Positions 8,467-25,057 of a stretch of DNA of 64,000 nt are shown here, in pieces. This stretch comes from Ruegeria sp. HKCCD4315 (lineage in GTDB: Bacteria > Pseudomonadota > Alphaproteobacteria > Rhodobacterales > Rhodobacteraceae). The first letter of the stretch is position 1. Every line of letters begins with the position of its first letter. The stretch spans positions 1,058,501 to 1,122,500 of the forward strand of contig NZ_WVRN01000001.1 in NCBI RefSeq assembly GCF_013112245.1. Direction: 5' to 3'. A program made the position numbers and the translations under genes. The notes beneath the pieces were generated by a model. It searched no databases and was not told where the DNA came from. It was given only the letters and a program-made list of their open reading frames with translations.

Positions 8467-8546
8467 AGGTTCAAGCTAACCTTTCCAACGAAATGTAATC
8501 GGCAATCGGGGTGGGCCAGCCCAGAAATCCGGCCCCGATTGCCGCG

Positions 8547-10737: not shown

Positions 10738-10852
10738 TGGAGGCGAGTACCGGAATCGAACCGGTGTACACGGATTTGCAAAATGCCTGACCCAGATGTT
10801 CACTTATTAGGGCGTCAACGCGTTCTTGGATGATTGCGTCCAGATCGATCAT
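10649..10852 (-). CDS. 5' part of a split integrase gene (integrated state), 67 codons
   Basis: An ATG at 10852 has a good ribosome site (AAAGGAAA, about 5 bases away) and opens MIDLDAIIQERVDALISE. The frame then crosses attL (codons CKSVYTGSIPVLAS) and ends in host DNA at 10649. The frame phase across the 44-bp core equals that of the integrase frame at the other end: both enter the core on the third base of a codon. In the excised circle this start would therefore continue through the core into the integrase with no stop, giving a 333-residue protein. As integrated, it yields only a short fusion peptide. That this is the true integrase start is an inference. A separate small gene is the alternative. 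Confidence 0.6.
   Translation of the reverse strand: MIDLDAIIQERVDALISEHLGQAFCKSVYTGSIPVLASTTSCFHVSIEFSKLVNVAFCVIVLAYGFH
10738..10781. repeat. attL, 44-bp copy of the tRNA-Cys 3' half
   Basis: Identical over 44 bases to 25014-25057. It starts at the encoded CCA end and reaches into the anticodon loop, then diverges abruptly. The truncated copy lacks the tRNA 5' half, so this is the displaced end and the intact tRNA is at the right end. Confidence 0.95.
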
Positions 10853-10876
10853 TTTAGTTTCCTTTAAGTTAGCAAG

Positions 10877-10899
10877 TGTAAGTCATTGATCACATGTGA
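10877..10899. promoter_or_regulatory. operator-like palindrome in the left-end control region
   Basis: A perfect palindrome TCACATGTGA at 10890-10899 follows TGTAAGTCATTGAT at 10877-10890. The latter motif recurs exactly at 14298-14311 in the presumed origin region. Both lie just upstream of the minus-strand start at 10852 and between it and the first plus-strand gene, where a regulator binding site would be expected. Function is inferred from position only. Confidence 0.4.
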
Positions 10900-10952
10900 C
10901 TTTTAGCAATTTATCGCTTGCTGGGCCAGCGGATTGTGGCGATGCTGGCCCC

Positions 10953-11255
10953 ATGCCTAGACTGTATAAACATTGGACGAAGGCCAGAGTATTGGCCGAC
11001 GCGAAACGCTACCGGCACCCCAGCGAATGGAAGCAGGGAAGCCGGGGCGCATACCGTGCCGCTGAACGCGGTGGATACCTCAAACAAGCGACCAAACACA
11101 TGATCCGGAAGCACCGCTGGACGCCGGATCGCCTGCGGGAAAGCACCAAGGGTTATCTGGTTTACAGCCAGTGGCGTGCCGCTGAACCCCAAGCCTATGC
11201 CGGTGCGTTTCGTGCCGGGATGCTGGATGAAATGCGGGCGTTGTTTACGCTCTAA
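10953..11255 (+). CDS. small two-repeat protein of phage-nuclease accessory type
   Basis: A 100-residue basic protein. Residues ~4-50 read WTKARVLADAKRYRHPSEW then AYRAAERGGYL. Residues ~54-98 repeat the pattern in degenerate form (WTPDRLREST, YSQW, AYAGAFRAGMLDEM). This Trp-Thr / Tyr-x-x-x-x-x-Trp / AYxxAxxxGxL repeat is one I know from phage proteins, often fused to GIY-YIG or other nucleases, where it probably binds DNA. No nuclease domain is present here. The start MPRLYKHW is chosen because the repeat begins at once after it; a longer start at 10896 is open. It is the first plus-strand gene of the element. Confidence 0.6.
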   Translation: MPRLYKHWTKARVLADAKRYRHPSEWKQGSRGAYRAAERGGYLKQATKHMIRKHRWTPDRLRESTKGYLVYSQWRAAEPQAYAGAFRAGMLDEMRALFTL

Positions 11256-11328
11256 AAAAGCCAAAGGGCCGATGGTGGCGGGTGTGGCTGACCCGAACTG
11301 ACGCGATCCATCGGTGACGAAAGAAAAA

Positions 11329-11352
11329 CCCCCGACCTGAGTGGGCCGGGGG
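11329..11352 (+). terminator. GC hairpin ahead of the primase gene
   Basis: Arms CCCCCG (11329-11334) and CGGGGG (11347-11352) form a stem of at least 6 bp about 40 bases before the primase start, with no T-run after it. It could weaken read-through from the first gene or act in the leader of the primase mRNA. Confidence 0.4.
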
Positions 11353-11393
11353 CAAACAAAACAACAACCCTCAATGCCAAAGGATCGTCAGAT

Positions 11394-13754
11394 ATGAATG
11401 ACAATACACCCACCCCGCAGCAACAGCAAACTTTTGGATGGCATATGTGGGCGTTGCGCCTTGGGTTTATGGGTACCATCCCGGTCATTCCGCCCGGTGC
11501 TGAACTACATGAAGACAGTAAGGTTGATCCGGATACCTGCGGCAAGGTGCCGGGGGATTTCTATGCCGGAAAGTGGAACGGCTTGGGACGCTGGCCATCG
11601 TTTGTCATGTCGGAATTCATGGCGACCCGGTTTGACCAACTGCACGCCAATGTCGGATTGATACAGGGCCGCGACTGGGTGTCATTTGATGCGGACCTGA
11701 CCGATCCGGTTCTGGCCAACGCGATCCACCAGCACATCTGGAACCGGGGCGGGGCACAGTGGCCCGTGCGCGTCGGACAGGAACCGAAGAAGCTGTGGCT
11801 GTTTCGCGTCGATGGTGATCCGATCAAGTCGATGCAGGTGAACTTCCGGATCGATGACAATCCGGACAACATCCAAGGCTTAGAGATACGCGGCACCAAA
11901 ACCCAAGTGGTCATTGCCGGAACGCATCCGACCGGCGTGCCGTATCAGTGGTTCAATTGGGACATGATGTCGTTGCACGCGTTCCCGTCCATTAATGCTG
12001 AACTGCTGCACGAACTGGTCGAAGAATGCTGCGTCATCATCGAACAGCACGGCTGGAAACGCGGACGCAAAACCAGACACAACAATGCCGACGGCACCGG
12101 GTCCGATCTTGGGGCGGAACCGTTCGATCCCGCACTGGTGCCGGAAGTGATGGCGTATCTGAAGAACGATGAACTGTCATATGACGATTGGCGACGGGTC
12201 GCGTTTGCGTTGAAGGCGTCATTGGGTGGGAACGGCTTGCCCTACTTCCAGCAATGGTCCGCACTGGCCACTAAGAATGACCCGCTGGCAACGGACCGGC
12301 TATGGATGGAAATCGAACCGGACAACAGCGTCGGATTCGGCACGCTGGTCACCTTGGCCCGCGAATGTACCGGGGGCGTATTGCCCGGTAATCTGGACGA
12401 ACGCGTCAGATTAGCAGCCAAGCTGAAAGGCGCTGTGCAGGCCGGTATGCCCATGGATGGGCAGATACTGCTGCCACCGGGCGTTGACGGCCCTGTGACG
12501 GCCCCTGACGCGCCTGCGATGCCGCCCATGGTCCCGGTCAATCGGGAGTTTATGCCGCACGCGGTCAATGGCAATCAGGAAGTCATCATCAACAGCATGG
12601 CCAATGTCGTCGCGTATATGCACAACACGCCTGAATGGCACGATTGCTTTGCATGGGATTCCTTTGCCCGTCGGATCATCGTGACCGTTCCATTCCCCGG
12701 CATGATCGATCCGGAACCGGGCCGCGCGCTGACCAAGAACGATCAGCAACGCATCCGTGCCGCACTGCTTCGCCATCCCATGTTCCCGCGCATCCAGCAA
12801 TCGGATGTGGACACCGCCATCACGCTGCGTGCTGAAGACAACCGTTTCGAGCCGGTGCAACAATATCTGACCGGGCTGGTCTGGGACGGCGTACGGCGTC
12901 TGGATGGGTGGTTGGTCACCTACGGGGGCGTTGACCCCTCTGGCGGGGCGTACGTCGCGCAGGTGGGCCGCAAATGGTTGATCGGGGCTGTGGCCCGCGC
13001 CATGGACCCCGGATGCCAGATGGACAATGGTTTGATCCTTGAAGGCGAACAGGGTGTCGGCAAGTCGTCACTGCTTCGCGCGCTGGTCCCGGTCGATGAA
13101 TGGTTCACCGACAGTCTGCCCGGTTTGGACAATGAACGGATCGCGGTGAACATGGCCGGTAAGTGGATTGTCGAAATGGCTGAATTGACGTCGATCTTGA
13201 AATCAGAACTGGAAGACGCACGCCACTTCATGACGCGCCGATATGATGAACAGCGGACCATGCACACCGAACTTCAGGCCCGGTATCCACGCCGCTGCGT
13301 TCTGGCCGGATCGACCAACCGGGATGATTACCTGAAGGACGCAGCCGGTGAACGTCGGTTCTGGATCGTGGAATGCACGCTGCCGTTGGATGTGGCTGGT
13401 TTGATCCGCGACCGCGATCAGATTTGGGCCGAAGCGTATCAGGCATATTCGAGTGGTGAAAAGTGGCATCTGGATCGCGACATCGCAGCGCAAGCCAAGA
13501 TCATCCAGCAGGAACGCGTCGAAGAAGATGAATGGCACGTTCGGATTGCGAATTATCTGGAAGGTCGGGATGTGGTGACGATCCCAGAAATAAAATCTGT
13601 GATTGGTGATGATGCACTTATCCCACGCCAACGACCATCAGCGAAAAAGCGGATTGAATCTGTGCTGAAACGGTTGGGTTGGAAGCACACCAAGGGTGAC
13701 ATGAAAGTGACTGACCCCAATCGTGGCAACAAACAATTCCGCAAGAAAGTGTAG
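11394..13754 (+). CDS. primase-polymerase fused to a VapE-like helicase
   Basis: The replication protein of the element, 786 residues. The first ~240 residues look like a bifunctional primase/polymerase (NVGLIQGRDWVSFDADLTD gives the acidic DxD; VVIAGTHPTGVPYQW follows). Residues ~250-340 resemble a PriCT-type linker (SYDDWRRVAFALK). The C-terminal part is a VapE/SF3-like ATPase: Walker A GEQGVGKSS near residue 550, acidic WIVEMAEL near 590, and the sensor-like AGSTNRDDYL with GERRFWIVE. PriRep proteins of phage satellites have this layout. A ribosome site AAAGGA lies about 10 bases upstream. Its last codons contain the first copy of the iteron that continues downstream, which links the protein to its origin. 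Confidence 0.88.
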   Translation: MNDNTPTPQQQQTFGWHMWALRLGFMGTIPVIPPGAELHEDSKVDPDTCGKVPGDFYAGKWNGLGRWPSFVMSEFMATRFDQLHANVGLIQGRDWVSFDADLTDPVLANAIHQHIWNRGGAQWPVRVGQEPKKLWLFRVDGDPIKSMQVNFRIDDNPDNIQGLEIRGTKTQVVIAGTHPTGVPYQWFNWDMMSLHAFPSINAELLHELVEECCVIIEQHGWKRGRKTRHNNADGTGSDLGAEPFDPALVPEVMAYLKNDELSYDDWRRVAFALKASLGGNGLPYFQQWSALATKNDPLATDRLWMEIEPDNSVGFGTLVTLARECTGGVLPGNLDERVRLAAKLKGAVQAGMPMDGQILLPPGVDGPVTAPDAPAMPPMVPVNREFMPHAVNGNQEVIINSMANVVAYMHNTPEWHDCFAWDSFARRIIVTVPFPGMIDPEPGRALTKNDQQRIRAALLRHPMFPRIQQSDVDTAITLRAEDNRFEPVQQYLTGLVWDGVRRLDGWLVTYGGVDPSGGAYVAQVGRKWLIGAVARAMDPGCQMDNGLILEGEQGVGKSSLLRALVPVDEWFTDSLPGLDNERIAVNMAGKWIVEMAELTSILKSELEDARHFMTRRYDEQRTMHTELQARYPRRCVLAGSTNRDDYLKDAAGERRFWIVECTLPLDVAGLIRDRDQIWAEAYQAYSSGEKWHLDRDIAAQAKIIQQERVEEDEWHVRIANYLEGRDVVTIPEIKSVIGDDALIPRQRPSAKKRIESVLKRLGWKHTKGDMKVTDPNRGNKQFRKKV

Positions 13755-14032
13755 CAAATCCGCAAGAAAGTGTAATTTCGATAATTTTCGCGTACAAGAA
13801 AGTGTAATGACACTAATTTGCGACGATTACACTTTCTACACACTTTCTTGACACAAATTCACAAGCCTTTTCTTATACTTATTCTTTTTTACAAGAAAAT
13901 AAATAATAAAAGAGTAAGGTTGCCAGAATAAATAATAAGTAAATTATAAAATTATAAACGGTAGATACAGCGATAATTAGGGTTTGAAATAGTATATATA
14001 GGCTGGAAGACTTTTTCGGGTTCACTTTCTTG
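13743..14032. repeat. iterons, probable replication origin
   Basis: The 11-mer AAGAAAGTGTA occurs exactly at 13743-13753, 13764-13774 and 13796-13806 on the plus strand. Inverted, near-exact copies lie at 13828-13838 and 13839-13849, and a further one at 14023-14032. The spacing is close to two or three helical turns for the first copies. The stretch after 13850 becomes very AT-rich, like a DNA unwinding element. Position next to the primase-helicase gene suggests that protein or a host initiator binds here. Confidence 0.7.
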
Positions 14033-14148
14033 CAAAGTTGTACGACCGGGCGGTATCTGGGTGTACGGCACCAGATAAGCAGCCGCCAAAAATCCCTAGT
14101 CTTTCCATCGATGGATCGCCCGTGGATCACCAGCAGATGATTATCGTA

Positions 14149-14636: not shown

Positions 14637-14894
14637 ATGCCAGCCAGTGTGCCCGTCGGAATGAGCCAAGCAAACTTCAACGCAGCCAAGGGCACGTATC
14701 GCGAAATGATGATGACGACCGCCCGGTGCGAAACCTGCGGCGTGATCGGAAACCTTAGCGTTTCGTATCTGGGTGATCTGGATGATGCTGATGGGTTCGA
14801 CCCCGACCATCTGATTTGCCGATGTCGCACGTGCATTTTCAAACGGCGCACCGAACCGATCAAAGTGGTGATGGCCCATGCCGACGTTGCTTGA
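14637..14894 (+). CDS. small zinc-ribbon-like protein
   Basis: An 85-residue protein with CETCG near residue 31 and CRCRTC near residue 62, a four-cysteine set typical of a zinc ribbon, with an acidic spacer between (GDLDDADGFDPDH). Probably binds nucleic acid or a partner protein; no family recognised. The start MPASVPVG has a weak AAAGGGA upstream; MSQANF at 14661 is an alternative. Its end overlaps the next gene by 17 bases. Confidence 0.6.
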   Translation: MPASVPVGMSQANFNAAKGTYREMMMTTARCETCGVIGNLSVSYLGDLDDADGFDPDHLICRCRTCIFKRRTEPIKVVMAHADVA

Positions 14895-15174
14895 CCTGAT
14901 GCTGGCCGACGCGGCCCGATGCAACGCAGACATGCGGGCCATCCAGCACGACAATCGCGGCGTTGCGGGCATGACCGTCAGTCAGGTGACCAAGGGTGTC
15001 AGCGTCGAAAACGGTGGACGGATCACCCGACGTGCCAGCCGCCTGTGCGACGGCTGCGGGGTAATCCTGCGGCAAGACCATCGATGGAACTGGGGCGGCA
15101 ACACCTGTTGCAGTCAGCGGTGTCTGGACGACGTGCGCCGCTGGCACGCATGGACCAAGCGCGGCGCGGCGTGA
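14878..15174 (+). CDS. small zinc-finger-like protein
   Basis: A 98-residue protein ending in a treble-clef-like motif: CDGCG, then WNWGGNTCCSQRCLDD, then a basic tail. The pattern CxxC-x17-CxxxC would hold one zinc ion. It overlaps the preceding zinc-ribbon gene and forms a two-gene unit with it, just before the palindrome array. The family is not recognised; a regulator or nucleic-acid binder is a guess from the fold pattern. Confidence 0.6.
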   Translation: MPTLLDLMLADAARCNADMRAIQHDNRGVAGMTVSQVTKGVSVENGGRITRRASRLCDGCGVILRQDHRWNWGGNTCCSQRCLDDVRRWHAWTKRGAA

Positions 15175-15188
15175 CCACCGACCCGGCC

Positions 15189-15257: not shown

Positions 15258-15267
15258 TAATTCGACC

Positions 15268-15309
15268 CGCTCTGGGGGTCACTTTCACACCAAGTATGAA
15301 AGTTGGGCC
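15268..15309. repeat. 42-bp direct repeat, left copy
   Basis: Identical over 42 bases to 15659-15700. It contains an internal hairpin with arms ACTTTCA and TGAAAGT. The two copies bracket the palindrome array exactly. Confidence 0.9.
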
Positions 15310-15328
15310 ACACTTTCCGCAATCAGGC

Positions 15329-15623
15329 ACCCCGGTTCGCGCGAACCGGGGTCGGCATTTCAGCGGACCGTGCAGGTAATTTTCGCAAAATCGGTCTACC
15401 CTTCCCGCGCGGGAAGGGTAAGGCATTTCCAGCAAAATTACATCCACACTTTCCGGTATCGGGCACCCCTTCCCGCGCGGGAAGGGGTCGGCATTTCAGC
15501 GGACCGTGCAGGTAATTTGGCCACTTTGGCCCACCCATCCCCAATTGGGGATAGCACCCACATTTGGGCCAAATTACATCCACACTTTTCGGTATCGGCC
15601 CACCCGTGCCGCGCGGCACGGGT
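15329..15623. repeat. array of five perfect palindromes spaced 68 bp apart
   Basis: Palindromes at 15329-15352, 15397-15420, 15465-15488, 15537-15552 and 15602-15623 have centres at 15340.5, 15408.5, 15476.5, 15544.5 and 15612.5, an exact 68-bp step. Left arms are ACCCCGGTTCGC, TACCCTTCCCGC, ACCCCTTCCCGC, ATCCCCAA and ACCCGTGCCGC; each right arm is the exact inverse, so changes are compensated. Units alternate. Type A (1, 3, 5) is followed by CGGCATTTCAGCGGACCG (last copy with two changes). Type B (2, 4) has an outer stem starting GTAATTT and ending AAATTAC. The step is not a multiple of 3, so the region does not code. A structured RNA or hairpin-forming DNA is likely; the function is unknown. 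Confidence 0.85.
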
Positions 15624-15658
15624 ACGGCATATCAGCGGACCGTGCAGGTAATTCGGGC

Positions 15659-15700
15659 CGCTCTGGGGGTCACTTTCACACCAAGTATGAAAGTTGGGCC
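15659..15700. repeat. 42-bp direct repeat, right copy
   Basis: The exact partner of 15268-15309, lying after the last palindrome. It is preceded by the same GTAATT that follows every type A palindrome. Confidence 0.9.
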
Positions 15701-15893: not shown

Positions 15894-16457
15894 ATGGACC
15901 GACCGATGACCCTGACCGTGAAAACAGCACCGACCGCAGCCAGAAAACTGGTGAAGTCCACCGGGTTCATCCGTCGATCACTTGATCAGGCTTCCCGCAG
16001 TGAACAGGACAACGTGACCGGTGCCCGTGAAGAACGCATCCGTGTGACCGCCAAGTTCACCGCCGATCTGCACGACGCGCGCCAAGCCATCACCGATACC
16101 GAAGCCCGTGCTGCCCAGTACGAACTGGCGTGCCATGTATTGCGGACCGGAAGCATCCCGACATCAACACGACGTCAAAGCGGCATCGTTGCGCACGCAA
16201 GCCGCATGGTCCGTTTTGGTGCATCCCAAGCCCAGCGTGACGCCGCAGCCGACCGGCTGACCATGGCCGCAACCGCTGCCCGGTCATCAGCCGACAAGGC
16301 CCAGACACGGATGGACGCAGCGGACGCTGATCTGATGGCGACGACCAAATTGGCCGACTATCTGGCGGCACTGGCCAAGCACGACTTCAAGAAAGAACAC
16401 CCGTTGGTGCGCAAGGCGCAGAAAACCTACACAGCATGGAAGACGATCAGCAAATGA
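15894..16457 (+). CDS. alpha-helical protein at the head of the capsid operon
   Basis: A 187-residue, alanine- and charge-rich protein predicted mainly helical, with no cysteine cluster or enzymatic motif. Long amphipathic stretches (ARQAITDTEARAAQYELA and DKAQTRMDAADADLM) suggest a coiled coil. It precedes the capsid gene by two small genes, a place where scaffold or size-determination proteins occur in phage and satellite operons; that role is a guess. The start could be MDRPMTL at 15894 or MTLTVK at 15906; neither has a strong ribosome site. Its stop overlaps the next start (ATGA). Confidence 0.6.
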   Translation: MDRPMTLTVKTAPTAARKLVKSTGFIRRSLDQASRSEQDNVTGAREERIRVTAKFTADLHDARQAITDTEARAAQYELACHVLRTGSIPTSTRRQSGIVAHASRMVRFGASQAQRDAAADRLTMAATAARSSADKAQTRMDAADADLMATTKLADYLAALAKHDFKKEHPLVRKAQKTYTAWKTISK

Positions 16458-16861
16458 CCAATCCATTCCGTAACGACCAGCAGAATCCATATGATCTTCC
16501 CGGTGGACCGGCGCTGAACGGCACCCGATCCGCAACCGATCCGAACATGGTCGTTTACGATCCGGTAAGTGATGCGGTCAATCCGGCTGGTGTGGCGCTG
16601 ATCCAGACCATCATGAAACAGGTCGATAAGCGCACGCTATCCGCCGATGACGTCGCAAAAGCGATGGCAAAATTGGTTAACCCATTGATAAAGCGCATAA
16701 ATTCGCTGGAAAAAGCGCTTGCCGTGGAAATCAGCAAGTCAGCAGACGCCATCGACAGCGACGTTGGCGCGTTTCTGGACGAAGACGGGCCACTGGATGA
16801 ACAGCAGTTGCTGGATATGGCCCGCAAGCACGCGAAGATGATGGAAGGGGTGAAACGATGA
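16454..16861 (+). CDS. hypothetical element protein (135 aa)
   Basis: Starts MTNPFRNDQQNPYDLPGG, a flexible polar N-terminus, followed by helical segments (IQTIMKQVDKRT, DDVAKAMAKLVNPLIKRI) and an acidic region. No family recognised. Coupled by ATGA overlaps to both neighbours, it belongs to the capsid operon; an internal core or scaffold-type protein is possible but unproven. Confidence 0.6.
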   Translation: MTNPFRNDQQNPYDLPGGPALNGTRSATDPNMVVYDPVSDAVNPAGVALIQTIMKQVDKRTLSADDVAKAMAKLVNPLIKRINSLEKALAVEISKSADAIDSDVGAFLDEDGPLDEQQLLDMARKHAKMMEGVKR

Positions 16862-17094
16862 TCGATGTCAAACGGATCATGGATGAACTGCCCCGCAAGG
16901 TCAGACGCACCAAGGCGCAGATGGTCGGTGAACTGATTGCTGAAGGCAAAAGCACCGCAGAAGCCAAGCACATTTCCGACGCAGCACACAAGCGCACGTA
17001 CAAGGCATGGCTGCGTGATTTCGAAGATCAGCACGGGCCGGGATTGGCCGATGCTGCCCGCAGAACCCTAAAGAGGATTGGAGTCCTGTCATGA
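16858..17094 (+). CDS. small basic helical protein (78 aa)
   Basis: MIDVKRIMDELPRKVRRTKA begins a basic protein with two or three helices (QMVGELIAEGKSTAEAKHI could be helix-turn-helix-like). It lies directly before the capsid gene with ATGA overlaps on both sides. Satellites often encode a small terminase subunit that redirects packaging, and this is the only gene here whose size and charge could suit that, but the sequence does not prove it. Confidence 0.55.
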   Translation: MIDVKRIMDELPRKVRRTKAQMVGELIAEGKSTAEAKHISDAAHKRTYKAWLRDFEDQHGPGLADAARRTLKRIGVLS

Positions 17095-18485
17095 AAGACC
17101 ATTTCGATGGCGACACCGCCGAAGATCGCAAAGCGCGCAAGCTGATCGACGCCGAACGCAAAGCGGCCCTTTTCGATGCGGCGATGGCCGAAGCAAAGCA
17201 AATCCCGCAGCGGCTGGATCAGGTCAAACAGCTTGCCGCTAAGGTGGAAGAACTGCAACGGGCCGTGTCGCGTCCCGTCACGGTCGAAGCCCGCCTGAAG
17301 CAGCCGCACGTGGCCAAAGGGACCGTGCAACGGATCGACCCTGTGTTGGCGGTCGGATCGGCCCTGACAGCCGAGTTTTGCCGCTACGTCGGGCAAAAGG
17401 ACGTTGACCAGACGCTGCACGAACTGCACCCCGACGAACGTGGCAAACTGCGACGGAAAGCGGCCCGTGATCTGTTGACCAAATCCGCAACCAATCCAGC
17501 CACCACGACAGCCATCGGTTGGGCTGCTGATCTGGTGGAATCCGATCATCTGGGTTGGGTCAGCGCACTGGAAACCACGTCGATTTTCGGTGCCATCGTC
17601 GCGGCTGGTGGTCGTCCGATCCCGATGGGTCGAAATCACTCGGTCAGTTATGCCAAGCGCAGCCCGATTGATGCGGGTGCAATCGCACAGGCATTCGTTC
17701 AGGAAAGCGGCACCTTCCCTGTCAAACAGGCGACCTTTGCGGGCCTGACGTTTAGCCGCAAAAAGATGGGCGTGATCACCGTTGCCAGTAACGAACTGTA
17801 TAAGGTTGCGGTGGAAGATTTGCGCACCATCCTGCTGGAAATGATCATCGATGACACGTCGCAAATGCTGGACGCCGTGATCCTTGATCCGACCCTGCCC
17901 GCACAGGCCAATCTGCGACCGGGTAGCCCGTGGTTCAACGAAGCCAACCGCGCGTCGGCTGGTACCGATCTGGCCAGCATCATCAGTGATCTGTCGTACC
18001 TGATCACCGCGATTGACCGACCCAAAAAGCCGCTTCTGATCATGGATACTGGCCGCGAATTGCGGCTGCGCACGTGGCGCGACAACATGGGTTGGGTCTT
18101 TGGATCGGAAATGGATAAAGGCACGATCTTTGGCGTGCCGTTCGTGTCCAGCGCATCGGTGCCGACCGATCAAATCTACATCATTGACGCCGACGATTTC
18201 ATGCACTGGATCAATCCGGCTGAAGTGGACATGTCACAAACCGCCACGGTGGTGATGGCCAATGACTCGGCACCCGATCCTGCAATGACCGCTGAAAACG
18301 CGATCACAGAACAGGGTTCGATCCAAGTGTCCGACGCAATTGGAACGTCACCGGCACCCGAACACGCGGCACAGGTCAAGTCGATGTTCCAGACCGACTC
18401 GACCGCCCTGCGCTGCGTCACCCCGACCGAATGGGGGATGCTGCACACGGGTCGCGCGGCGTGGGTTAGCGGGGTCGCGTGGTGA
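17091..18485 (+). CDS. HK97-fold major capsid protein
   Basis: A shell-forming protein of 464 residues. Residues 1-65 are charged and coiled-coil-like (RLDQVKQLAAKVEELQ), like an HK97 delta domain. The body shows the family path: ESGTFPVKQATFAGLTFSRK with KKMGVITVASNEL (E-loop and spine), LLIMDTGRELRLR, GTIFGVPFVSSASVP then IYIIDADDF, and the C-terminal MFQTDSTALRCV followed by a tryptophan-rich end. There is no protease gene beside it, so either the delta domain stays on or a helper enzyme removes it. No portal or terminase gene precedes it, unlike in normal phages. Confidence 0.87.
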   Translation: MKDHFDGDTAEDRKARKLIDAERKAALFDAAMAEAKQIPQRLDQVKQLAAKVEELQRAVSRPVTVEARLKQPHVAKGTVQRIDPVLAVGSALTAEFCRYVGQKDVDQTLHELHPDERGKLRRKAARDLLTKSATNPATTTAIGWAADLVESDHLGWVSALETTSIFGAIVAAGGRPIPMGRNHSVSYAKRSPIDAGAIAQAFVQESGTFPVKQATFAGLTFSRKKMGVITVASNELYKVAVEDLRTILLEMIIDDTSQMLDAVILDPTLPAQANLRPGSPWFNEANRASAGTDLASIISDLSYLITAIDRPKKPLLIMDTGRELRLRTWRDNMGWVFGSEMDKGTIFGVPFVSSASVPTDQIYIIDADDFMHWINPAEVDMSQTATVVMANDSAPDPAMTAENAITEQGSIQVSDAIGTSPAPEHAAQVKSMFQTDSTALRCVTPTEWGMLHTGRAAWVSGVAW

Positions 18486-18721
18486 GACAGATCAGCCTGA
18501 CCCAGCACCGCCACAGCACCGAAACAAGCGTCTATGTGGACGGTCAGACCCAGACCGCCACGACGCCTGACCAGATCGGCGCGATACTCGCCAAGGCGGG
18601 CGTGAAGCACAGCGATCAGGTCTACTGGTCAAACCCATCGGGCAAGGTGGATCGCCTGTTGGCCGCGCAATTCCTGCCGCCTGTGGATGTGAAGCCGAAG
18701 CGGGGTAAACGCCGTGGCTAA
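18482..18721 (+). CDS. small protein after the capsid gene (79 aa)
   Basis: Starts at a GTG that overlaps the capsid stop (GTGA). The polar sequence includes a beta-rich start (TETSVYVDGQTQTATTP) and ends in a lysine/arginine tail. In phages, head decoration or head-tail joining proteins follow the capsid gene; this position is the only hint to its role. Confidence 0.55.
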   Translation: MRQISLTQHRHSTETSVYVDGQTQTATTPDQIGAILAKAGVKHSDQVYWSNPSGKVDRLLAAQFLPPVDVKPKRGKRRG

Positions 18722-19004
18722 GACGTTTGACACTCGACCCAACACGCCGCGATTTACCACGGTCGAACTTGGCACCGTGCTGGAACCGCGCGACCCTGCA
18801 CCGATCCACAGTTGGCCGACCGTAACGGGCAAGCCTGACCAGATCGTCACCTATGAGGGCGAACGGGTCGGCCAGTGCGGTGCCGATGGCGTTGCGGTCT
18901 TTGACGACAGTGGCGGTCGCGAACCCCAACCGTGCGACATTGCCCGTCGCAAGGTTCAGTTGGGCGAATTGACCAGCATCGACAGCGAAGGGAATCTGAT
19001 CTGA
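18714..19004 (+). CDS. hypothetical element protein (96 aa)
   Basis: Starts at GTG 18714, overlapping the preceding gene by 8 bases. Probably beta-rich, with segments FTTVELGTVLEPRDPAPIHS, IVTYEGERVGQCGADGVAVF and an acidic C-terminus. No family recognised. A small virion or head-tail component is possible from its place in the capsid operon. Confidence 0.55.
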   Translation: MAKTFDTRPNTPRFTTVELGTVLEPRDPAPIHSWPTVTGKPDQIVTYEGERVGQCGADGVAVFDDSGGREPQPCDIARRKVQLGELTSIDSEGNLI

Positions 19005-19186
19005 TGGCCAGAGTGACACGCACGAATAAGCAAGGCACCAACTTGGGGGTCACTGTCGAACTGAACGACTATGACATTGATCTGCCCGTACCCGGAACAC
19101 CCACAACCCAGCTTGGAATGAGCCATCCGAACGGGCCAGCGGTCTGGTCGGGCCTATACGTGCTGCAATCGGACCTGACGCCATGA
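19004..19186 (+). CDS. hypothetical element protein (60 aa)
   Basis: Coupled to the preceding gene by TGATG. Short and beta-rich (LGVTVELNDYDIDLPVPG, WSGLYVLQSDLTP). No recognised family. The intact frame and overlaps on both sides support a real gene. Confidence 0.5.
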   Translation: MARVTRTNKQGTNLGVTVELNDYDIDLPVPGTPTTQLGMSHPNGPAVWSGLYVLQSDLTP

Positions 19187-19410
19187 CCGCTGTCTACAAC
19201 AAAGCGGGCGTTTTTCAGCGCGACATGACCTTGCCTGAAGGTCTGAGTTACAGCCGCGTCAAAGGCACCCAGCTTTACCAATTGGGCAAATGGGACGTGA
19301 ACGCTTTTGCCAAACGATATGGCGGTCAGTGGTGGCCCTATTACGTCCACGCAGACGATCTGCCACCGCCCGAAGCCGCACGCAAAAGGAAACGCAGGAA
19401 TGCCGTTTGA
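19183..19410 (+). CDS. hypothetical element protein (75 aa)
   Basis: Coupled by ATGA to the previous gene. It has an aromatic-rich middle (YQLGKWDVNAFAKRYGG, WWPYYVHADDLPPPEAA) and a very basic tail. No family recognised. Confidence 0.5.
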   Translation: MTAVYNKAGVFQRDMTLPEGLSYSRVKGTQLYQLGKWDVNAFAKRYGGQWWPYYVHADDLPPPEAARKRKRRNAV

Positions 19411-19585
19411 TGGACCCATGCCGAGAAAACGCAAGCCCCGTAAAGAACCAAAGATCGACCGGGACGCAGCCGCACTGGCCGTTCAGAAGGAATTGGGGCG
19501 ACCGCTGACGTGGGAAGAATACTGCCATGTGTGGAACGCCATCGCGGACGAAGAAGGCACAAAGGACCACTTGAATGCCAAGTGA
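19400..19585 (+). CDS. hypothetical basic element protein (61 aa)
   Basis: Overlaps its predecessor by 11 bases. A lysine/arginine/proline-rich start (MPRKRKPRKEPKIDRD) leads to a helical part with LGRPLTWEEYCHVWNAI. No family recognised; a basic N-terminus could touch nucleic acid. A start at 19418 is also possible. Confidence 0.5.
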   Translation: MPFDGPMPRKRKPRKEPKIDRDAAALAVQKELGRPLTWEEYCHVWNAIADEEGTKDHLNAK

Positions 19586-19781
19586 AGCCAACAGAGTGGA
19601 CGCCCAGAAGACGGAACGTGACCGTGTGCAGGTCGCACAGGCCAACGTGAACAGCCGTGAAGCGGGCAAACTGGGCCGTGACAGGCTGGTGGGCCGGATT
19701 GAGAGTTTGAAGGCCGCAGGGCTGCACACAGCGGCCCGTAAGCTGCAAAGCGAACTGGACCGGATGAATGCAGACCGATGA
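19575..19781 (+). CDS. hypothetical helical element protein (68 aa)
   Basis: Highly charged and helical (DAQKTERDRVQVAQANVN, IESLKAAGLHTAARKLQSEL). Overlaps both neighbours by 11-14 bases. No family recognised. Confidence 0.5.
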   Translation: MPSEANRVDAQKTERDRVQVAQANVNSREAGKLGRDRLVGRIESLKAAGLHTAARKLQSELDRMNADR

Positions 19782-20028
19782 ATGGGAAGCAATCTATTCC
19801 GCCGTGGGCGCAAGCATGGCGCTGGCATGGTCTGCGCCAACTGATGAAGATTTTGCTGTCCAGATGACGCGGCTGTGTCGGACGCTCTGGTCCGAACTGC
19901 GTAAAGAACCATGGCCCGATGATGTGCTGCCATTGACCCGGCACATGACGGGCGTTCCGCAGAACGATCCGCAGGAATTTGTTCGCCGCCTGCTGTCGTT
20001 TGAAATTGAAAAGCAAAGGATGAACTGA
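19768..20028 (+). CDS. hypothetical element protein before the tape measure gene (86 aa)
   Basis: An acidic, tryptophan-containing helical protein (EWEAIYSAVGASMALAW, LCRTLWSELRKEPW). In siphophages the gene just before the tape measure is often a tail assembly chaperone, sometimes expressed by frameshift. Position and size fit that role, but no slippery site was identified and no homology is claimed. Confidence 0.55.
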   Translation: MQTDEWEAIYSAVGASMALAWSAPTDEDFAVQMTRLCRTLWSELRKEPWPDDVLPLTRHMTGVPQNDPQEFVRRLLSFEIEKQRMN

Positions 20029-21818
20029 TGGCTACCGCACCGACGAATACACAATCCACCCACACGCTGATGCTGCTGGCTGACGCCAACGGGATGAAAA
20101 AGGGTTTGGATGCTGTGGACCGCGAACTGCGCGATGTGGTCGTTCAACTGGATCGCGCCAGTGCATCCGGTAACAAGTTCAATACTGCCACCAAGAACTT
20201 CACCAACACCGCAAGGCAAGCGACGACTGGCACCCGTCGGATGGGCAACAGCATCCAAAACGCCAGCTATCAGGTCGCGGACATGGCGGTGCAACTTGAA
20301 ATGGGTACGTCATTTGCCCGTGCGTTTGGACAGCAGTCATCCCAGCTTCTGGCCGGTTTTGGCGTTTGGCCTGCCGTGATCGGCGCGGCAATCGCTGCCG
20401 GTATTCCGTTGATCAAATGGCTGATCGATGCGGGGGATGAAACCGAGATTGTGACCGCTGCCCTGAAGGATTTGCAAGACGAACTGGACAGCCTGCGCTT
20501 TGGTGAAACCGACCAGCAGCGTGATCTGGGTCGTCAGGCCGAAGCATTGGTTGCCGAGATTGCGGAACTGGAACTGATCATCAAGGACATCCGCGAAGAA
20601 TTTGCCGGTAGTGCCGACGATCTGGCCGACATCGAAATTGTCCTGAACGAACTGGTCGAAGACGAACAAGAACAGTTGGACCTGAAACGTCAGCAACTGA
20701 AGGAAATTCGCGAACAGCGGCGTGCGCTGGAAGAACAAATCCAAAAGACCCGCGACTTGATTGACGCGTTTAACCAAGCGTTGAACCCCGTCATTCGGAT
20801 GAACGAAGCGTGGGATTCCATGTCCGGCAAGCTGGACACCATAATCGACAAAGCCAAGGACATGGCCACAGAGTTCATCAAGGCAGCACAGGCCAACGCG
20901 ATCATCGATGGCGGTGATGGTGGGTTGCAGGGTCGCTTTGACCGTGCGGCGTACGGTGCTGGCCAGCAGGCACTACGCGACCGGCTTCTGTCCGGTTACA
21001 CGCTGCCCGAAGACAAGCCAGCCGGTGGCGGGGGTGGGGGCGGTCGCAGCAGACGCGATCCGCTTGAAGAGTTGATGGAAAGCATCACGCTGCGTGAACG
21101 GCTTGTCGGTCTGTCAGAGGCCGAAGCGGACGTGGTGAAGAAGCTAGGCGACAATTACGCCAACTACACCCAGGAACAGATCGACGGCGCGACCCGAGCC
21201 ATGGAAGCATTGGAAGCGCAAGAAAAAGCCTATGAGCGTCAGCAGGAATTGATCGGTGATCTGTCGTCTGGATTTACCGATGCGATCTTCGACATCGCGG
21301 ACGGAACGAAATCGGCCAGTGAAGCATTCGCGGATATGGCGCAATCGATCCTGCGCAACCTTGGCGAAATGATCATCCAGCAGATGATCTTCAACGCGCT
21401 GTCGGGTGCCCTTGGCGGCACGGGTCTTGGTTCGATCTTGGGCTTTGCCAATGGCGGTGCGATTGCCAACGGAAGCGTCGTGCCATTTGCAGACGGGGGT
21501 GTGGTATCCAGCCCTGCCATGTTCCCGCTGTCCGGTGGTCGGACCGGATTGATGGGTGAGGCAGGCCCCGAAGCGATCATCCCCCTACAGCGCGATTCTG
21601 CGGGCCGTCTGGGCGTTGGTGGCCCGTCCATATCCATCAACAACTATTCGGGCCAAGAAGTGACCGTCACGCGGTCGGACAGCGAGGTCATTGAAATTGC
21701 GGTCGGTCAGGCGCGGCAGGCTGTGGCACAGGACTATGCTCAGTCGATGCAGAGCGGTCACGGCACGTATGCGTCCGCTCTGGAAAGCAGCTACAGGTCC
21801 GGCAGGAAGGCGTTTTGA
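20028..21818 (+). CDS. tail tape measure protein
   Basis: A 596-residue protein with the lambda-type tape measure layout. An N-terminal region (MLLADANGMKKGLDAVDREL) is followed by a hydrophobic glycine/alanine segment near residue 110-130, long helical coiled-coil stretches (residues ~140-245) and a poly-glycine linker near residue 330. The typical C-terminus includes SEAFADMAQSILRNLGEMII, FANGGAIANGSVVPFADGG and GEAGPEAIIPL. In phages its length sets tail length. It starts on the stop of the previous gene (TGATG). No tail tube gene is recognised nearby, so the tail would have to be built with helper proteins. Confidence 0.85.
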   Translation: MATAPTNTQSTHTLMLLADANGMKKGLDAVDRELRDVVVQLDRASASGNKFNTATKNFTNTARQATTGTRRMGNSIQNASYQVADMAVQLEMGTSFARAFGQQSSQLLAGFGVWPAVIGAAIAAGIPLIKWLIDAGDETEIVTAALKDLQDELDSLRFGETDQQRDLGRQAEALVAEIAELELIIKDIREEFAGSADDLADIEIVLNELVEDEQEQLDLKRQQLKEIREQRRALEEQIQKTRDLIDAFNQALNPVIRMNEAWDSMSGKLDTIIDKAKDMATEFIKAAQANAIIDGGDGGLQGRFDRAAYGAGQQALRDRLLSGYTLPEDKPAGGGGGGGRSRRDPLEELMESITLRERLVGLSEAEADVVKKLGDNYANYTQEQIDGATRAMEALEAQEKAYERQQELIGDLSSGFTDAIFDIADGTKSASEAFADMAQSILRNLGEMIIQQMIFNALSGALGGTGLGSILGFANGGAIANGSVVPFADGGVVSSPAMFPLSGGRTGLMGEAGPEAIIPLQRDSAGRLGVGGPSISINNYSGQEVTVTRSDSEVIEIAVGQARQAVAQDYAQSMQSGHGTYASALESSYRSGRKAF

Positions 21819-22144
21819 TGGAAGGTCAGTTCATTCAGGACGAACTGCGGGCCGCATTGGCCCCGTTCATCGAAAAGGACGTCAGTGTATTTTGCTGGGC
21901 ACTGCCGGATAGTGGTGGCCCGAACTGGGTGATCCAAATGCAGATCGGCCCGTTTCGTGTGTTGGATAGCTTGCGAGTAAGTCGGGATTTGAGTGACGCC
22001 GAAGTGGTGGATGAAGCGATGCGTGCCGCGTGGTCTGATCTGGTTCGCCTGCTGCGGATGCTAAACGCGCAGCCCATTGCTGACCGGTTCGTGCCTTCAT
22101 GTGACGTCCACCCATTTATGCCAGTGATAGAAGTAACACCTTAA
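21818..22144 (+). CDS. hypothetical protein after the tape measure gene (108 aa)
   Basis: Coupled by TGATG to the tape measure gene and the last gene of the operon. Mixed fold: FIQDELRAALAPFIEKDVS, FCWALPDSGGPNWVIQMQIG and an aspartate-rich helix. No family recognised. In phages, distal tail proteins follow at this place, but this one is much smaller. Confidence 0.55.
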   Translation: MEGQFIQDELRAALAPFIEKDVSVFCWALPDSGGPNWVIQMQIGPFRVLDSLRVSRDLSDAEVVDEAMRAAWSDLVRLLRMLNAQPIADRFVPSCDVHPFMPVIEVTP

Positions 22145-22178
22145 CCGACCGGGGCGTTATTCCCAAACCGGTTGGCCA

Positions 22179-22212
22179 GCCCGCACCGTCAGGTTCCATC
22201 AACGGTGCGGGC
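22179..22212 (+). terminator. strong hairpin ending the capsid operon
   Basis: An 11-bp perfect stem, GCCCGCACCGT (22179-22189) with ACGGTGCGGGC (22202-22212), 35 bases after the stop of the last operon gene. The T-run behind it is weak (GATTTC), so termination may be incomplete. Confidence 0.65.
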
Positions 22213-22305
22213 GATTTCAATCACTTACAGCGGTAAAACTGTGTAACCCAATAGATGGGGGATCGGTCCGCATTGGGCTGGGTACGTACAATTCCTAATC
22301 AAAGT

Positions 22306-22321
22306 TAGGGTTTGAACCCTA
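22306..22321. promoter_or_regulatory. operator-like palindrome
   Basis: Perfect 7-bp arms TAGGGTT and AACCCTA around TG. It lies 55 bases upstream of a promoter-like sequence. A repressor binding site is plausible by position; no regulator gene is assigned. Confidence 0.4.
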
Positions 22322-22375
22322 AAACAACTTGTGCTAACAAGGTCAGGCACGGGACGAATCGTTCCGGCTTGTTCT

Positions 22376-22404
22376 TTGACATTGTTGTACTTTTTCGTTC
22401 GCTA
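22376..22404 (+). promoter_or_regulatory. sigma70-type promoter for the accessory module
   Basis: TTGACA at 22376-22381, a 17-base spacer and TCGCTA at 22399-22404, about 50 bases before the start of the 299-residue gene. The -35 box is a consensus match and the -10 box is weak. Confidence 0.5.
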
Positions 22405-22455
22405 GGCTTCACGCCGATAATGCGAAATCCCAAAAACACACAGAAAGGAATGCTT

Positions 22456-23355
22456 ATGAAAGCACCTGAAACACCAACCCAAGGTTGGATAAACAAACGC
22501 GTCAAAGCGGGTAAGCGCGAAATGAAGGCGATCAAACTGGCGAACGGTAAGGTTCGCGACCATTGGATGGAAATCGGTCGGATCGCTCTGGAAGTGAAGG
22601 ACAGCGCACCGGTCAAAGGTATGCTGACCGATTGGGCCACCGAAGTGCTTGGCACTGCCACACCTTCGATACTGGCCAGCCGTGCGATCTGGATGCACCA
22701 GCATCCGAAAGCGGTCGCACTGGTTCCCGAGAATGCCAACTACCCCGACGCCGTGGTCAAAGAATGGGGAAAGATCGCCAACGCCAAGCTGGACGAATTT
22801 GTCGAAGCAGGCCGCAACGATCTTGACGCATTGGCTGCGGAACTGGGTGTCGAAACCACGGATTTGCTGGACGCCAAGGGCGAACCGAAAGGCCGCTACA
22901 AAAAGGCCATCAAACGCCGTGACGACAAGCTGGCAAAGCTGGACGAAGAATGGCTGGACCAGCAGACCGCACAGGCCGCACCGGACGTGCAGCAAGCGCA
23001 AGAGGCCATCACACCCCATGTGGGCATCATGAACCCGCCAGTGGGTGACACCTTCGCAACGATCCAGACGTGGCGTGAACTGCAACGGCTGCGCGCCAAG
23101 CTGGAAGACGAATTGGACGAAGCCGCGTACCGGGTTCTGGCTGCACAGCGTGACGCTTGTGACGGGTCAATGAGCGAAGCCGACGCCAAGGCGGCATATG
23201 AAGACGGCCAGATCGTCTGCATCGCTGCGGCTGGCTGCTACATCGCTGACCCCAAAAGCGGCCTGTCATGGTCCACCCATCGCCGCAGATGCGGCAAGGA
23301 TCACGGCAAAGCCGAACCGTTCAAGGCACGATACGACTACTTCATCCCGCAGTGA
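22456..23355 (+). CDS. hypothetical element protein (299 aa)
   Basis: Starts MKAPETPTQGWINKRVKAG with AAGGA 7 bases upstream, which decides against the ATG at 22450. Residues ~20-80 (HWMEIGRIALEVKDSAPVKG, ILASRAIWMHQHP) remind me weakly of DUF3102-like phage proteins. The middle is a charged coiled coil. The C-terminal part has three cysteines and several histidines (CIAAAGCYIADP, THRRRCGKDHG) that could bind a metal. It heads a separate transcription unit with its own promoter, the place where satellites keep accessory or interference genes. Function unknown. Confidence 0.65.
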   Translation: MKAPETPTQGWINKRVKAGKREMKAIKLANGKVRDHWMEIGRIALEVKDSAPVKGMLTDWATEVLGTATPSILASRAIWMHQHPKAVALVPENANYPDAVVKEWGKIANAKLDEFVEAGRNDLDALAAELGVETTDLLDAKGEPKGRYKKAIKRRDDKLAKLDEEWLDQQTAQAAPDVQQAQEAITPHVGIMNPPVGDTFATIQTWRELQRLRAKLEDELDEAAYRVLAAQRDACDGSMSEADAKAAYEDGQIVCIAAAGCYIADPKSGLSWSTHRRRCGKDHGKAEPFKARYDYFIPQ

Positions 23356-23392
23356 CGCGGGGTGAAGCCATCAACTGACAAAGGAAACTGAC

Positions 23393-23599
23393 ATGACCAA
23401 ATGGATGATTGTCGGGATGATCGCGGCAACCGCTTTGGCTGTCACATTCCTGACCGACAGCGGGATCGACCTGACCCGCAATGACGACCCGGTGCAGATC
23501 GCCATGTGCGAACACATCGATACGGAACTGCGCCGCAGCAAGACCGACTGGGAACAGTCGTTCTGGATCAAGAAATCCGTGGAAAAGGGGTGCGACTGA
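23393..23599 (+). CDS. small membrane-anchored or secreted protein (68 aa)
   Basis: MTKWMIVGMIAATALAVTFL is a single hydrophobic N-terminal segment (anchor or signal). It is followed by a charged, probably periplasmic part with two cysteines (MCEHIDTEL and the C-terminal KGCD). An AAAGGAAA ribosome site precedes it. No lysis gene is otherwise seen in the element, but nothing here shows holin-like structure. It is coupled by TGATG to the next gene. Confidence 0.6.
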   Translation: MTKWMIVGMIAATALAVTFLTDSGIDLTRNDDPVQIAMCEHIDTELRRSKTDWEQSFWIKKSVEKGCD

Positions 23600-24111
23600 T
23601 GAACCGAATGCTGATCAATACGGACCGCTTGTATGTGGCGGGGCGGGACGACAACCGCGAAGTGAAAGTCGGGATCACACAGAATGACTCTGACACACGG
23701 GTTCGACAATACGCCAAAACAAACGGCCTGAAAGGCTATGACGGATGGATCAAAAACCTTCGTGAATATCGCATACCCCGGCATCTGATGCGGGAAGATT
23801 TTGAAACCGCTGTCCATTGCGCTTTGCGTGTTGATGCGGGGTTGGACCCTAAGCACGTGCATGGAAGCGGACCGCGTGAAATCTTTCCGCTGTCGTTTGA
23901 ACGGGCGTGCGCGGTTATCGAACTGCAAATCCGACGCGAAGAATACTTCCGTCAGTACAGTCTGCGGCACGAATTGATCCGACCGATTGCCGAAGAAATC
24001 CTGTCAACCAAATCGCCCGAAGACATTGCGATCATCCAACGCCGGATCAACAACCTAAAACGATTGGCGGATGCCCAAGCCGAACACCTGACCAAAACGC
24101 CCCGCCATTGA
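23599..24111 (+). CDS. T5orf172/GIY-YIG-like protein
   Basis: A 170-residue protein. The N-terminal part LYVAGRDDNREVKVGITQND followed by TRVRQYAKTNG matches the pattern of T5orf172-type GIY-YIG domains (a Tyr strand, KxGIT, then an Arg helix). These occur in phage nucleases and DNA-binding proteins. A histidine and a glutamate that could complete an active site are present (RHLMREDFETAVHCAL), but activity is not proven. The C-terminus is a helical bundle. It is the last plus-strand gene of the element; the terminator hairpin overlaps its stop. Confidence 0.6.
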   Translation: MNRMLINTDRLYVAGRDDNREVKVGITQNDSDTRVRQYAKTNGLKGYDGWIKNLREYRIPRHLMREDFETAVHCALRVDAGLDPKHVHGSGPREIFPLSFERACAVIELQIRREEYFRQYSLRHELIRPIAEEILSTKSPEDIAIIQRRINNLKRLADAQAEHLTKTPRH

Positions 24112-24125
24112 GCGGGGCTTTTTTG
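24099..24125 (+). terminator. Rho-independent terminator at the element right end
   Basis: The stem GCCCCGC / GCGGGGC with a short loop is followed by six T. It lies between the convergent accessory gene and integrase gene and overlaps the 3' end of the former. Confidence 0.88.
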
Positions 24126-24126
24126 T

Positions 24127-24930
24127 TTACCGATCCTGAAACAACAGGTCTTCCCAGCGGTGCATGATGGCCCGTCGTTGGGTCAGGCGTCTGGCGCGGT
24201 TGTATGTGCGCTGTACGCCGCGTGCGGTTGATGCCGCTTGGTGGTTCAATATCCGGTCGATGTCGTTTTCATCCTGTCCGTCTTCAGCCAGATGCGTGGC
24301 AAAGCTGCGCCGGATGTCTTGGATGCGGAACTGGGTGGTCGGGACATAGGCCGATTGAAACCACCGCTTTTTGACATGGGCCGTCGTCTTGAAATGGGCG
24401 AACCGGTTAGGCGTCATGACACCCAGCACGAACGCGCGATCCGCCAGCGGCACAATGTGGCTGGTGCCGTTCTTACTGGTCGGCAAATACATGTCCATGC
24501 CCTGCGCACGGCTGGGGCAGAACCGCATCAGGTCGGATGGGCGCTGACCGGTCAGGATCAGCAGTTGCAGGAACTGCGACCATTCCTGCCCTTGGTACGG
24601 CGCGGCATTGTAGAGCGCGCGCAACTGATCCAGCGACAGGACGACATCGCGCGGCTGTTCCTTCCCCGGCAGAATCGTCGGGTGCAGAACCGTCCAGTCA
24701 TGGGATCGGCAGTAGGTGAAAAAGTGGGTGATCGCGGCCCGGTATCGATTGCGCGTGCCACCAGACCAGCGTTTGACCGAATCTGTCAGGTCCGCGTTCG
24801 ATAATTCTGACACCTGCTTACTTTGGTATTTCCGAAGACAGCGGGCCAGTTGCAGGTACCGTTCGCGCCCGTTTTTCAGGCCGTCCAGATGGTCAGTTTT
24901 GTAGCGTTCTAGTGCATCGCGCACGCGCAT
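24127..24930 (-). CDS. int: tyrosine integrase (3' part of a split gene)
   Basis: A site-specific recombinase that inserts the element into tRNA-Cys. From the ATG at 24930 it has 267 residues: a core-binding domain (residues 1-90) and a catalytic domain with Arg130 (LTGQRPSDL), Lys153, Arg207, His230 (LNH) and nucleophile Tyr243 (RTYNR). The usual box II histidine is Gln204 (IQDIRR). The start at 24930 has a good ribosome site (AGGGGA, 7 bases). The open frame continues 28 codons upstream to the attachment core and, through the tRNA, to 25104. In the excised circle it would join the start at 10852, giving 333 residues, a usual integrase length. Confidence 0.9.
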   Translation of the reverse strand: MRVRDALERYKTDHLDGLKNGRERYLQLARCLRKYQSKQVSELSNADLTDSVKRWSGGTRNRYRAAITHFFTYCRSHDWTVLHPTILPGKEQPRDVVLSLDQLRALYNAAPYQGQEWSQFLQLLILTGQRPSDLMRFCPSRAQGMDMYLPTSKNGTSHIVPLADRAFVLGVMTPNRFAHFKTTAHVKKRWFQSAYVPTTQFRIQDIRRSFATHLAEDGQDENDIDRILNHQAASTARGVQRTYNRARRLTQRRAIMHRWEDLLFQDR

Positions 24931-25013
24931 GGATTCATCCCCTGATAAGTGTACAGGTGTCGCGATGTCCGTGCGTTGTGCCTCAAGTGCCTGCTTTTGC
25001 AGGTCATTTTGTT

Positions 25014-25057
25014 TGGAGGCGAGTACCGGAATCGAACCGGTGTACACGGATTTGCAA
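25014..25057. repeat. attR, 44-bp core inside tRNA-Cys
   Basis: The exact partner of 10738-10781. It runs from the CCA end into the anticodon loop and is part of the intact tRNA. Confidence 0.95.

Follow-up and report, generated by a model that had tools for sequence, protein, structure and literature searches.

What kind of mobile element encodes its own major capsid protein (MCP) and tape measure protein (TMP), when neither a portal, nor a large terminase, nor a tail tube can be recognised within it? The question is raised by an element of Ruegeria sp. HKCCD4315 (Rhodobacterales) that lies in a 64-kb stretch of contig NZ_WVRN01000001.1 (positions 1,058,501 to 1,122,500), here called the window. 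Coordinates without a locus prefix are positions within this window, L-numbers denote other loci and P-numbers denote protein rows. We consider it moderately probable that the element is a helper-dependent phage satellite of a capsid-carrying Rhodobacterales family, which would use a siphophage helper to form small heads and chimeric tails. A preliminary description of the same DNA had proposed a satellite-like integrated element, a view that the gene set supports; neither of the two outcomes that it named as refuting was obtained.

The integrated element and its insertion site

The element is bounded by two 44-bp direct repeats of 100% identity whose starts are 14,276 bp apart, the right one being the 3' part of an intact tRNA-Cys gene (25014-25087, minus strand). 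Both the repeats and the tRNA gene were located where the preliminary description had placed them. Among 20 Markov-resampled sequences, the longest exact repeat at a spacing of 7-16 kb was 14 bp. The right flank was matched in 11 genomes of the genus, including the element's own, and in all 10 other congeners the tRNA-Cys gene is intact, the left flank is conserved and the element is absent. The distance from the left flank to the tRNA gene in these genomes (loci L087-L096, corresponding to window 8454-25087) ranges from 56 to 6,912 bp, with a near-empty site in three of the 10 (56, 225 and 396 bp). This range suggests that the site is variable and takes up other DNA as well.

A capsid protein and a tape measure protein without a recognisable connector or motor

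Profile scans against PHROGs and Pfam covered 20 open reading frames (ORFs) of the element, a 68-amino-acid (aa) ORF at 23393-23599 lying outside this set (Table 1). Among the ORFs called, only the primase, MCP, TMP, g18 and integrase genes reach at least 250 aa. The integrase (PF00589) and the primase with a VapE-like helicase domain, together with PriCT_2 and Prim-Pol domains, agree with the preliminary description, which had also noted a capsid protein of HK97 type and a tape measure protein of lambda type. The MCP and TMP genes belong to a single operon, g05-g17 (15906-22144), in which each of 13 genes overlaps the next by 1-22 nt.

The MCP matches the major head protein family PHROG 617 (E 5e-20), and a Foldseek comparison of its predicted structure with solved capsids gave E 1e-11 to the marine siphophage R4C, with the capsids of gene transfer agents (GTAs) and HK97 close behind. 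The model consists of a helix at residues 10-60, a low-confidence linker, further helices and the HK97 core. We placed the protein family in a tree of 35 rows built on the last 400 residues (12 rows labelled as satellite, 23 as phage), in which all 12 satellite-labelled rows fall on one side of a branch with support of 100/99. These labels differ in basis: P0002, P0004 and P0006 were tagged as satellite without a view of their loci, P0010, P0013 and P0014 were tagged as phage by default, and viral contigs took their phage label from the sizes of neighbouring ORFs. The tree leaves out P0001 (the window MCP itself), P0003, P0005 (which agrees with L010 in length) and the viral contigs L019 and L026. 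The close phage-labelled rows include contigs with protease-sized ORFs before the capsid gene (L015-L017), and others have fused proteins; a fused protease domain is present in seven of the ten proteins P0007-P0016, excluding P0010, P0013 and P0014. Identity of the MCP to phage records is 22-24% at best. Between two Shimia elements of the family, the MCP is, on the estimates obtained (dN 0.19, dS 1.87, NG86), under constraint, with dS near saturation. Its first 75 residues (17091-17315) are 81-87% identical across the window, P0003 and P0006, while the remainder is only 35-44% identical, and the N-terminal domain looks as if it had been exchanged by recombination.

The N-terminal part of the TMP (residues 18-287) matches phrog_1538. 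Its glycine-rich C-terminal part matches Tape_meas_lam_C and resembles the tape measure of the Rhodobacterales GTA (NF058675, E 1.5e-29, below the cut-off of that model). Both matches and an open frame are kept in two elements whose TMPs are 30% identical. The gene directly before it, g15, was found only where the TMP occurs among the nine loci compared, and it matched no family in the libraries used and gave no alignment with a 102-aa gene of L014; by its position it may be a tail assembly chaperone.

The lack of terminase and portal in the preliminary description persisted under profile search: no large terminase, portal, protease, connector or tail tube was recognised among the 20 ORFs. The remaining matches to head, packaging and tail families all had E values of 0.019 or worse (for the TMP, among 25 of its 32 matching PHROG families). 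These include matches of g06 (head maturation protease, 0.03), g07 (small terminase, 0.11; an Arc-like repressor scored 0.007), the TMP (head morphogenesis family, 0.019) and the MCP (tail protein, 0.21), and those of g06, g07 and the TMP were treated as chance. No function was assigned by any library used to 10 of the 13 operon proteins, which span 60-183 aa. Large terminases and portals are typically bigger than these unassigned proteins. The largest of them, g05, is modelled as an all-helical bundle, a fold that we take to differ from those of tail tubes and HK97 proteases, and its best match in the PDB had E 0.6, none being at or below 0.001. We rejected a hidden portal, protease or tail tube on the model of g05; the other proteins of the operon without assigned function have 60-141 aa.

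A second copy and a family of related elements

Another element, L006, lies at a tRNA-Ser gene of the same genome and has the primase, g03-g06, MCP, g11, g13-g15, TMP and g17 in the same order as in the window. Identity between the two is 85% for g11, 70% for g04, 43% for the primase, 40% for the MCP, 36% for g03 and 30% for the TMP, a spread suggesting that parts may have been exchanged. The distance is too great for a ratio of substitution rates (dN 0.63 for the MCP and 0.68 for the TMP). L006 also has an HNH gene and, between g15 and the TMP gene, a 257-aa gene (L006:6897-7670, minus strand) that is missing from the window element; the latter matched no family and gave only chance-level matches in the PDB.

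A scan of contigs for one conserved peptide returned 40 stretches, six of which are relatives: these belong to Tateyamaria, a Rhodobacteraceae bacterium, Ruegeria arenilitoris, Shimia (two loci) and Pelagimonas varians. The nine loci compared are the window, L006 and L008-L014, L007 being a duplicate of L009. The MCP is thus present in seven loci beyond the two of this genome. Relatives of g13 occur in five of the nine, while those of g06 are found in L006, L012 and L014 and, more weakly, in L011 and L008. Two members share a genome in two bearers, namely L012 and L014 in one Shimia isolate, and the window element and L006. End repeats mark seven units, the window included, with spans of 12.3-14.8 kb. 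Those of L008, L011, L012 and L013 exceed the repeats of all 20 shuffles by at least 3 bp and that of L010 by 1 bp, while the 14-bp repeat of L006 is no better than shuffles but lies at a tRNA end. The L008 unit would take in a sulfatase gene, which leaves its right end unsure; no end repeat was found for L014, and L009 appears on visual inspection to be a remnant next to host genes. The replication genes vary from VapE in the window to DUF5906 (L010, L011, L013 and L014) and AAA_25 (L008 and L012).

A small terminase was matched in L014 (E 9e-10) and L011 (E 7e-9), and more weakly in L010 (phrog_5601, 0.0022; Terminase_4, 4e-5, just below the cut-off) and L008 (0.0016), and was assigned in L013 through clustering only; none was recognised in the window, L006, L009 or L012. 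The concentration of the TMP in two loci, with a small terminase instead in most other relatives, suggests that the TMP belongs to an optional module. A g17 homologue directly follows g13 in L012 (E 2e-5, single comparison), which indicates that this locus lacks the TMP cassette. Three findings go beyond the preliminary description, namely the other copy in this genome, the small terminases among the relatives and the status of the TMP as an optional part.

Some further relatives and searches complete this picture. P0034, a relative of g05 with 73% identity, lies on a 13,908-bp contig that is close to the size of a whole element, and other g05 relatives listed include proteins of Phaeobacter and further Ruegeria. 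Scans of viral contigs with the MCP alone, with a g05 alignment and with P0034 found no relative, and no near-identical DNA was found in the phage and plasmid collections.

The host genome and the source of a helper

The GTA of the host is reduced to an 823-aa ORF with an internal deletion (C1:1221159-1223630, equal to L079:10160-12631), which joins the N-terminus of a terminase to the C-terminal half of the megatron protein (NF048004, E 3e-228). In the searches made of this genome, the portal families PF04860 and PF05136 and the terminase family phrog_2 gave no match, PF03237 gave one GTA remnant and the TMP matched only the two elements; other portal and terminase families were not searched. 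Without such portals, terminase or a further TMP, no GTA or related prophage appears usable as a resident helper. An outside source of the helper is probable, as the host has no portal of the two tested families and only a fused remnant of its GTA. A search for helpers based on the TMP returned partial matches only, comprising 14 proteins as well as 168 phage and 41 plasmid records; none of the records had coverage above 80%.

Proposed mechanism and alternative explanations

We hypothesize that the element would be excised upon infection by a siphophage, would use its own primase to replicate from an iteron origin, and would express the g05-g17 operon. The satellite MCP, through its N-terminal helix and perhaps with g06 as a scaffold, would then form a small shell, entirely or in part, around the helper portal, into which the helper terminase would pack the 14.3-kb genome. 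This step is modelled on the Ccm protein of SaPIbov5, a satellite homologue of capsid proteins that forms the pentamers of a T=4 shell (as described in PMC8569155). The satellite TMP would take the place of the helper TMP to give a chimeric tail, a step modelled on the phage-inducible chromosomal island-like elements (PLE) of Vibrio cholerae, whose own TMP was shown to replace that of the helper in chimeric tails and in which deletion of tmp cut transduction by 96% to 99.9% (in the portion of PMC12987554 covered). In most relatives, by contrast, packaging would be redirected by a small terminase of their own and the tail would stay that of the helper. We infer on this basis a replacement of both capsid size and tail length. 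More specifically, we see an even chance that this lineage re-specifies head size with its MCP and tail length with its TMP while borrowing the connector, motor and tube, and that a ruler cassette (g14, g15 and TMP, or part of it) has been acquired or lost in a family in which most other members use their own small terminase.

Several points weigh against this interpretation. What is established is the set of genes, the order in which they lie, the family and the missing functions; no helper, induction, excision or packaging has been seen. The MCP falls below the cut-offs of Pfam Phage_capsid (E 5e-4) and NCBIfam TIGR01554 (E 1e-4), and its model is of middling confidence (pLDDT, the predicted local distance difference test score, 68.6). 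The TMP occurs in two of the nine loci, both in one genome, and no small terminase, cos site or pac site was recognised in the element or in L006. The family is also rare: a single-sequence MCP search found it in three of 295 family genomes and an MCP profile in four of 394, its own included, one of these four containing a 761-aa frame of the length of fused protease-capsid proteins. The possible role of g06 as a scaffold comes from position and make-up, and that of g15 as a chaperone from position.

How the satellite MCP would enter a shell could differ from the building of a whole capsid. A somewhat doubtful variant, contained within the satellite interpretation, is that the protein occupies certain positions of a mixed shell, e.g. 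the pentamers, and forms no capsid alone. SaPIbov5 Ccm does so without its own portal or protease and by itself makes no capsid (PMC8569155, in the part covered), whereas the MCP described here is not close to any known helper capsid and has an N-terminal helical domain, neither of which is decisive. It is less likely that interference comes first, with the MCP and TMP acting mainly as decoys that poison the assembly of an infecting phage while satellite transfer proceeds independently of them. Blocking of helper assembly is known from satellites, tail assembly is attacked by the Rta of PLE11 (according to the portion of PMC12987554 covered) and one relative, L010, carries a defence gene. The MCP is however under constraint between the Shimia elements, its operon contains small genes that are conserved, and the relatives that pair an MCP with a small terminase point to packaging.

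The persistence of a capsid and a tape measure by chance in a decayed prophage is very improbable: both proteins are of phage type and in phage order, and the phage-like contigs L018 and L020 have relatives of both, but a second element of the same order is 30-40% diverged, the operon is gapless, the satellite MCPs form their own branch and units of like size occur in other genomes. The preliminary description had named descent by decay from a larger prophage, present intact in relatives, as one case that would speak against it, and what we found was a syntenic second element and capsid-bearing relatives; on the synteny, the operon and the MCP branch we rejected this explanation. There is a very slim chance that the element is a self-sufficient virus of small size, in which strong divergence hides a portal, a motor and a tail tube. 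The many operon proteins without a function in the libraries leave room for this, but they are too short for a portal or large terminase of typical size, and the helical bundle modelled for g05 has no counterpart in the PDB. Slimmest is the prospect that the element is a parasite of GTAs. The likeness of the TMP C-terminus to the GTA tape measure favours it, as does a TMP match in 227 of 295 family genomes, mostly to short ORFs of GTA type. It conflicts with the fused terminase-megatron ORF and missing PF04860 portal of the host, and with the absence of that portal family from three of seven bearer genomes; for this host we rejected it on account of the fused remnant.

Relation to known satellites

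The element has the integrase, primase, attachment repeats and length of 10-15 kb that define phage-inducible chromosomal islands (PICIs) in a wide sense. PICIs also redirect packaging with an own small terminase or a cos site, and here a small terminase was recognised in relatives but not in the element itself. It lacks the combination of terminase, portal, capsid and tail tube that a complete prophage unites, nor does it contain the conserved head-tail cluster with terminase and portal of a GTA. Rhodobacterales GTAs and siphophages such as R4C resemble it in the C-terminal part of the TMP and in capsid fold, but their sets of head and tail genes are complete, unlike that of the element.

P4-like satellites have the Psu, Delta and Sid proteins, and no such name appeared among the PHROG and Pfam hits, no direct comparison with P4 having been made. 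Capsid-forming PICIs (cf-PICIs), which average about 14 kb (PMC10803314, in part), likewise encode their own capsid protein, and some have putative tmp genes. According to the parts of PMC10690885 and PMC12987554 covered, they also encode a protease, portal, connectors and both terminase subunits. In the element, the MCP is present, the portal, protease and head-tail connectors had no match among the 20 ORFs, and no large or small terminase or HNH nuclease was recognised. Full head modules are described for cf-PICIs and Streptomyces satellites (PMC10690885, in part), and lone capsid-like proteins for SaPIbov5, PmCI172 and EcCICFT073 (PMC6893505, in part). The last two, compared here by description, share the lone capsid-like protein with the element, and the portion of PMC6893505 covered mentions no tape measure in them.

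SaPIbov5 is also an integrated satellite with an HK97-fold capsid protein and an N-terminal helical domain, whose portal comes from the helper and whose protease is thought to do so, the same role that we propose for the helper here. It differs in its Gram-positive host and in that no tape measure is reported in the material covered (PMC8569155). Homology of the MCP to Ccm was not found by a profile search of solved structures at E <= 1. PLE, which share an own TMP with the element, take and remodel the helper capsid protein, and also have a tail assembly chaperone and, in part, a baseplate hub (PMC12987554, in the portion covered); g15 occupies the chaperone position without homology.

The integrases differ too, that of PLE being a large serine recombinase and that of the element a tyrosine recombinase. 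The preliminary description had called a pair of capsid and tape measure without connectors unfamiliar. The pairing without connectors or motor indeed did not turn up in the literature searched, which left out most subscription papers and the original reports on cf-PICIs, virion-encapsidated integrative mobile elements (VEIMEs) and tycheposons. Singly the two halves are not unprecedented, since SaPIbov5 Ccm, the PLE TMP and putative cf-PICI tmp genes are published, so that the combination appears new while each half is already known. No published phage satellite of this bacterial group was found in the same search; PMC12324425, in the part covered, concerns an unrelated marine element.

If the satellite interpretation holds, the head size and the tail length of particles built largely by a different virus would both be set by a single 14-kb element. 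The satellite shell would need to fit a portal, and the satellite ruler a tail tube, of foreign origin, and gene removal in two natural variants within one strain could test which rules govern the compatibility of portal, shell, tape measure and tube. More generally, tail reprogramming would extend beyond the PLE of Vibrio to a family of Rhodobacterales.

Other features of the element

Table 1. Features of the element at tRNA-Cys, in window coordinates
Feature	Position	Strand	Evidence or remark
Left attachment repeat, 44 bp	10738..10781	+	100% identity with 25014-25057
g01, small gene	10896..11255	+	phrog_20046 (family without assigned function), E 2e-13
Primase-helicase (Prim-Pol, PriCT_2, VapE-like)	11394..13754	+	VapE-like domain, E 2e-68
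Iteron-like repeats, candidate replication origin	13742..13848	.	five copies of AGAAAGTGT
g03 and g04, cysteine-rich small genes	14637..15174	+	36% and 70% identity to L006 counterparts (tblastn); no family
Palindrome array, period about 68 bp	15258..15700	.	possible packaging or regulatory site
g05, all-helical conserved protein	15906..16457	+	in 6 of 9 loci; model pLDDT 92.4
g06, possible scaffold immediately 5' of capsid gene	16436..16861	+	position and make-up
g07, small gene	16858..17094	+	46% identity to L008:11804-12043
HK97-type MCP, 464 aa	17091..18485	+	PHROG 617, Foldseek, tree
g09-g14, six small overlapping genes	18479..19781	+	g11 and g13 kept in relatives; no family
g15, immediately before TMP, possible tail assembly chaperone	19768..20028	+	42% identity to L006
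Lambda-type TMP, 596 aa	20028..21818	+	phrog_1538, E 1e-23; Tape_meas_lam_C; NF058675
g17, last gene of operon	21818..22144	+	40% identity to L006; L012 homologue
Accessory genes g18, 68-aa ORF and g19	22456..24111	+	no relatives in other 8 loci; no confident family
Tyrosine integrase	24127..25047	-	PF00589, E 4e-10; start as set by gene caller
Right attachment repeat inside tRNA-Cys	25014..25057	.	tRNA 25014-25087, minus strand

Other cargo occurs among the relatives, as in L010, where a Shedu (SduA) defence gene lies inside the unit behind the capsid gene (L010:11783-13009; PADLOC E 2.5e-163).

The word AGAAAGTGT occurs five times from the end of the primase gene onwards, against 0.22 copies expected in the window, and these repeats are read as a putative iteron origin. 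A comparison of repeats in seven other loci found none clustered near the replication gene in L006, L008 or L012; repeated words cluster immediately after this gene in L011 and L013 and at a greater distance after it in L014, while L010 has a 6-bp tandem repeat before the primase. The palindrome array is the single occurrence of its kind in its own genome, and the stretch that contains it (15240-15770) folds better than all 100 shuffles (z -8.0).

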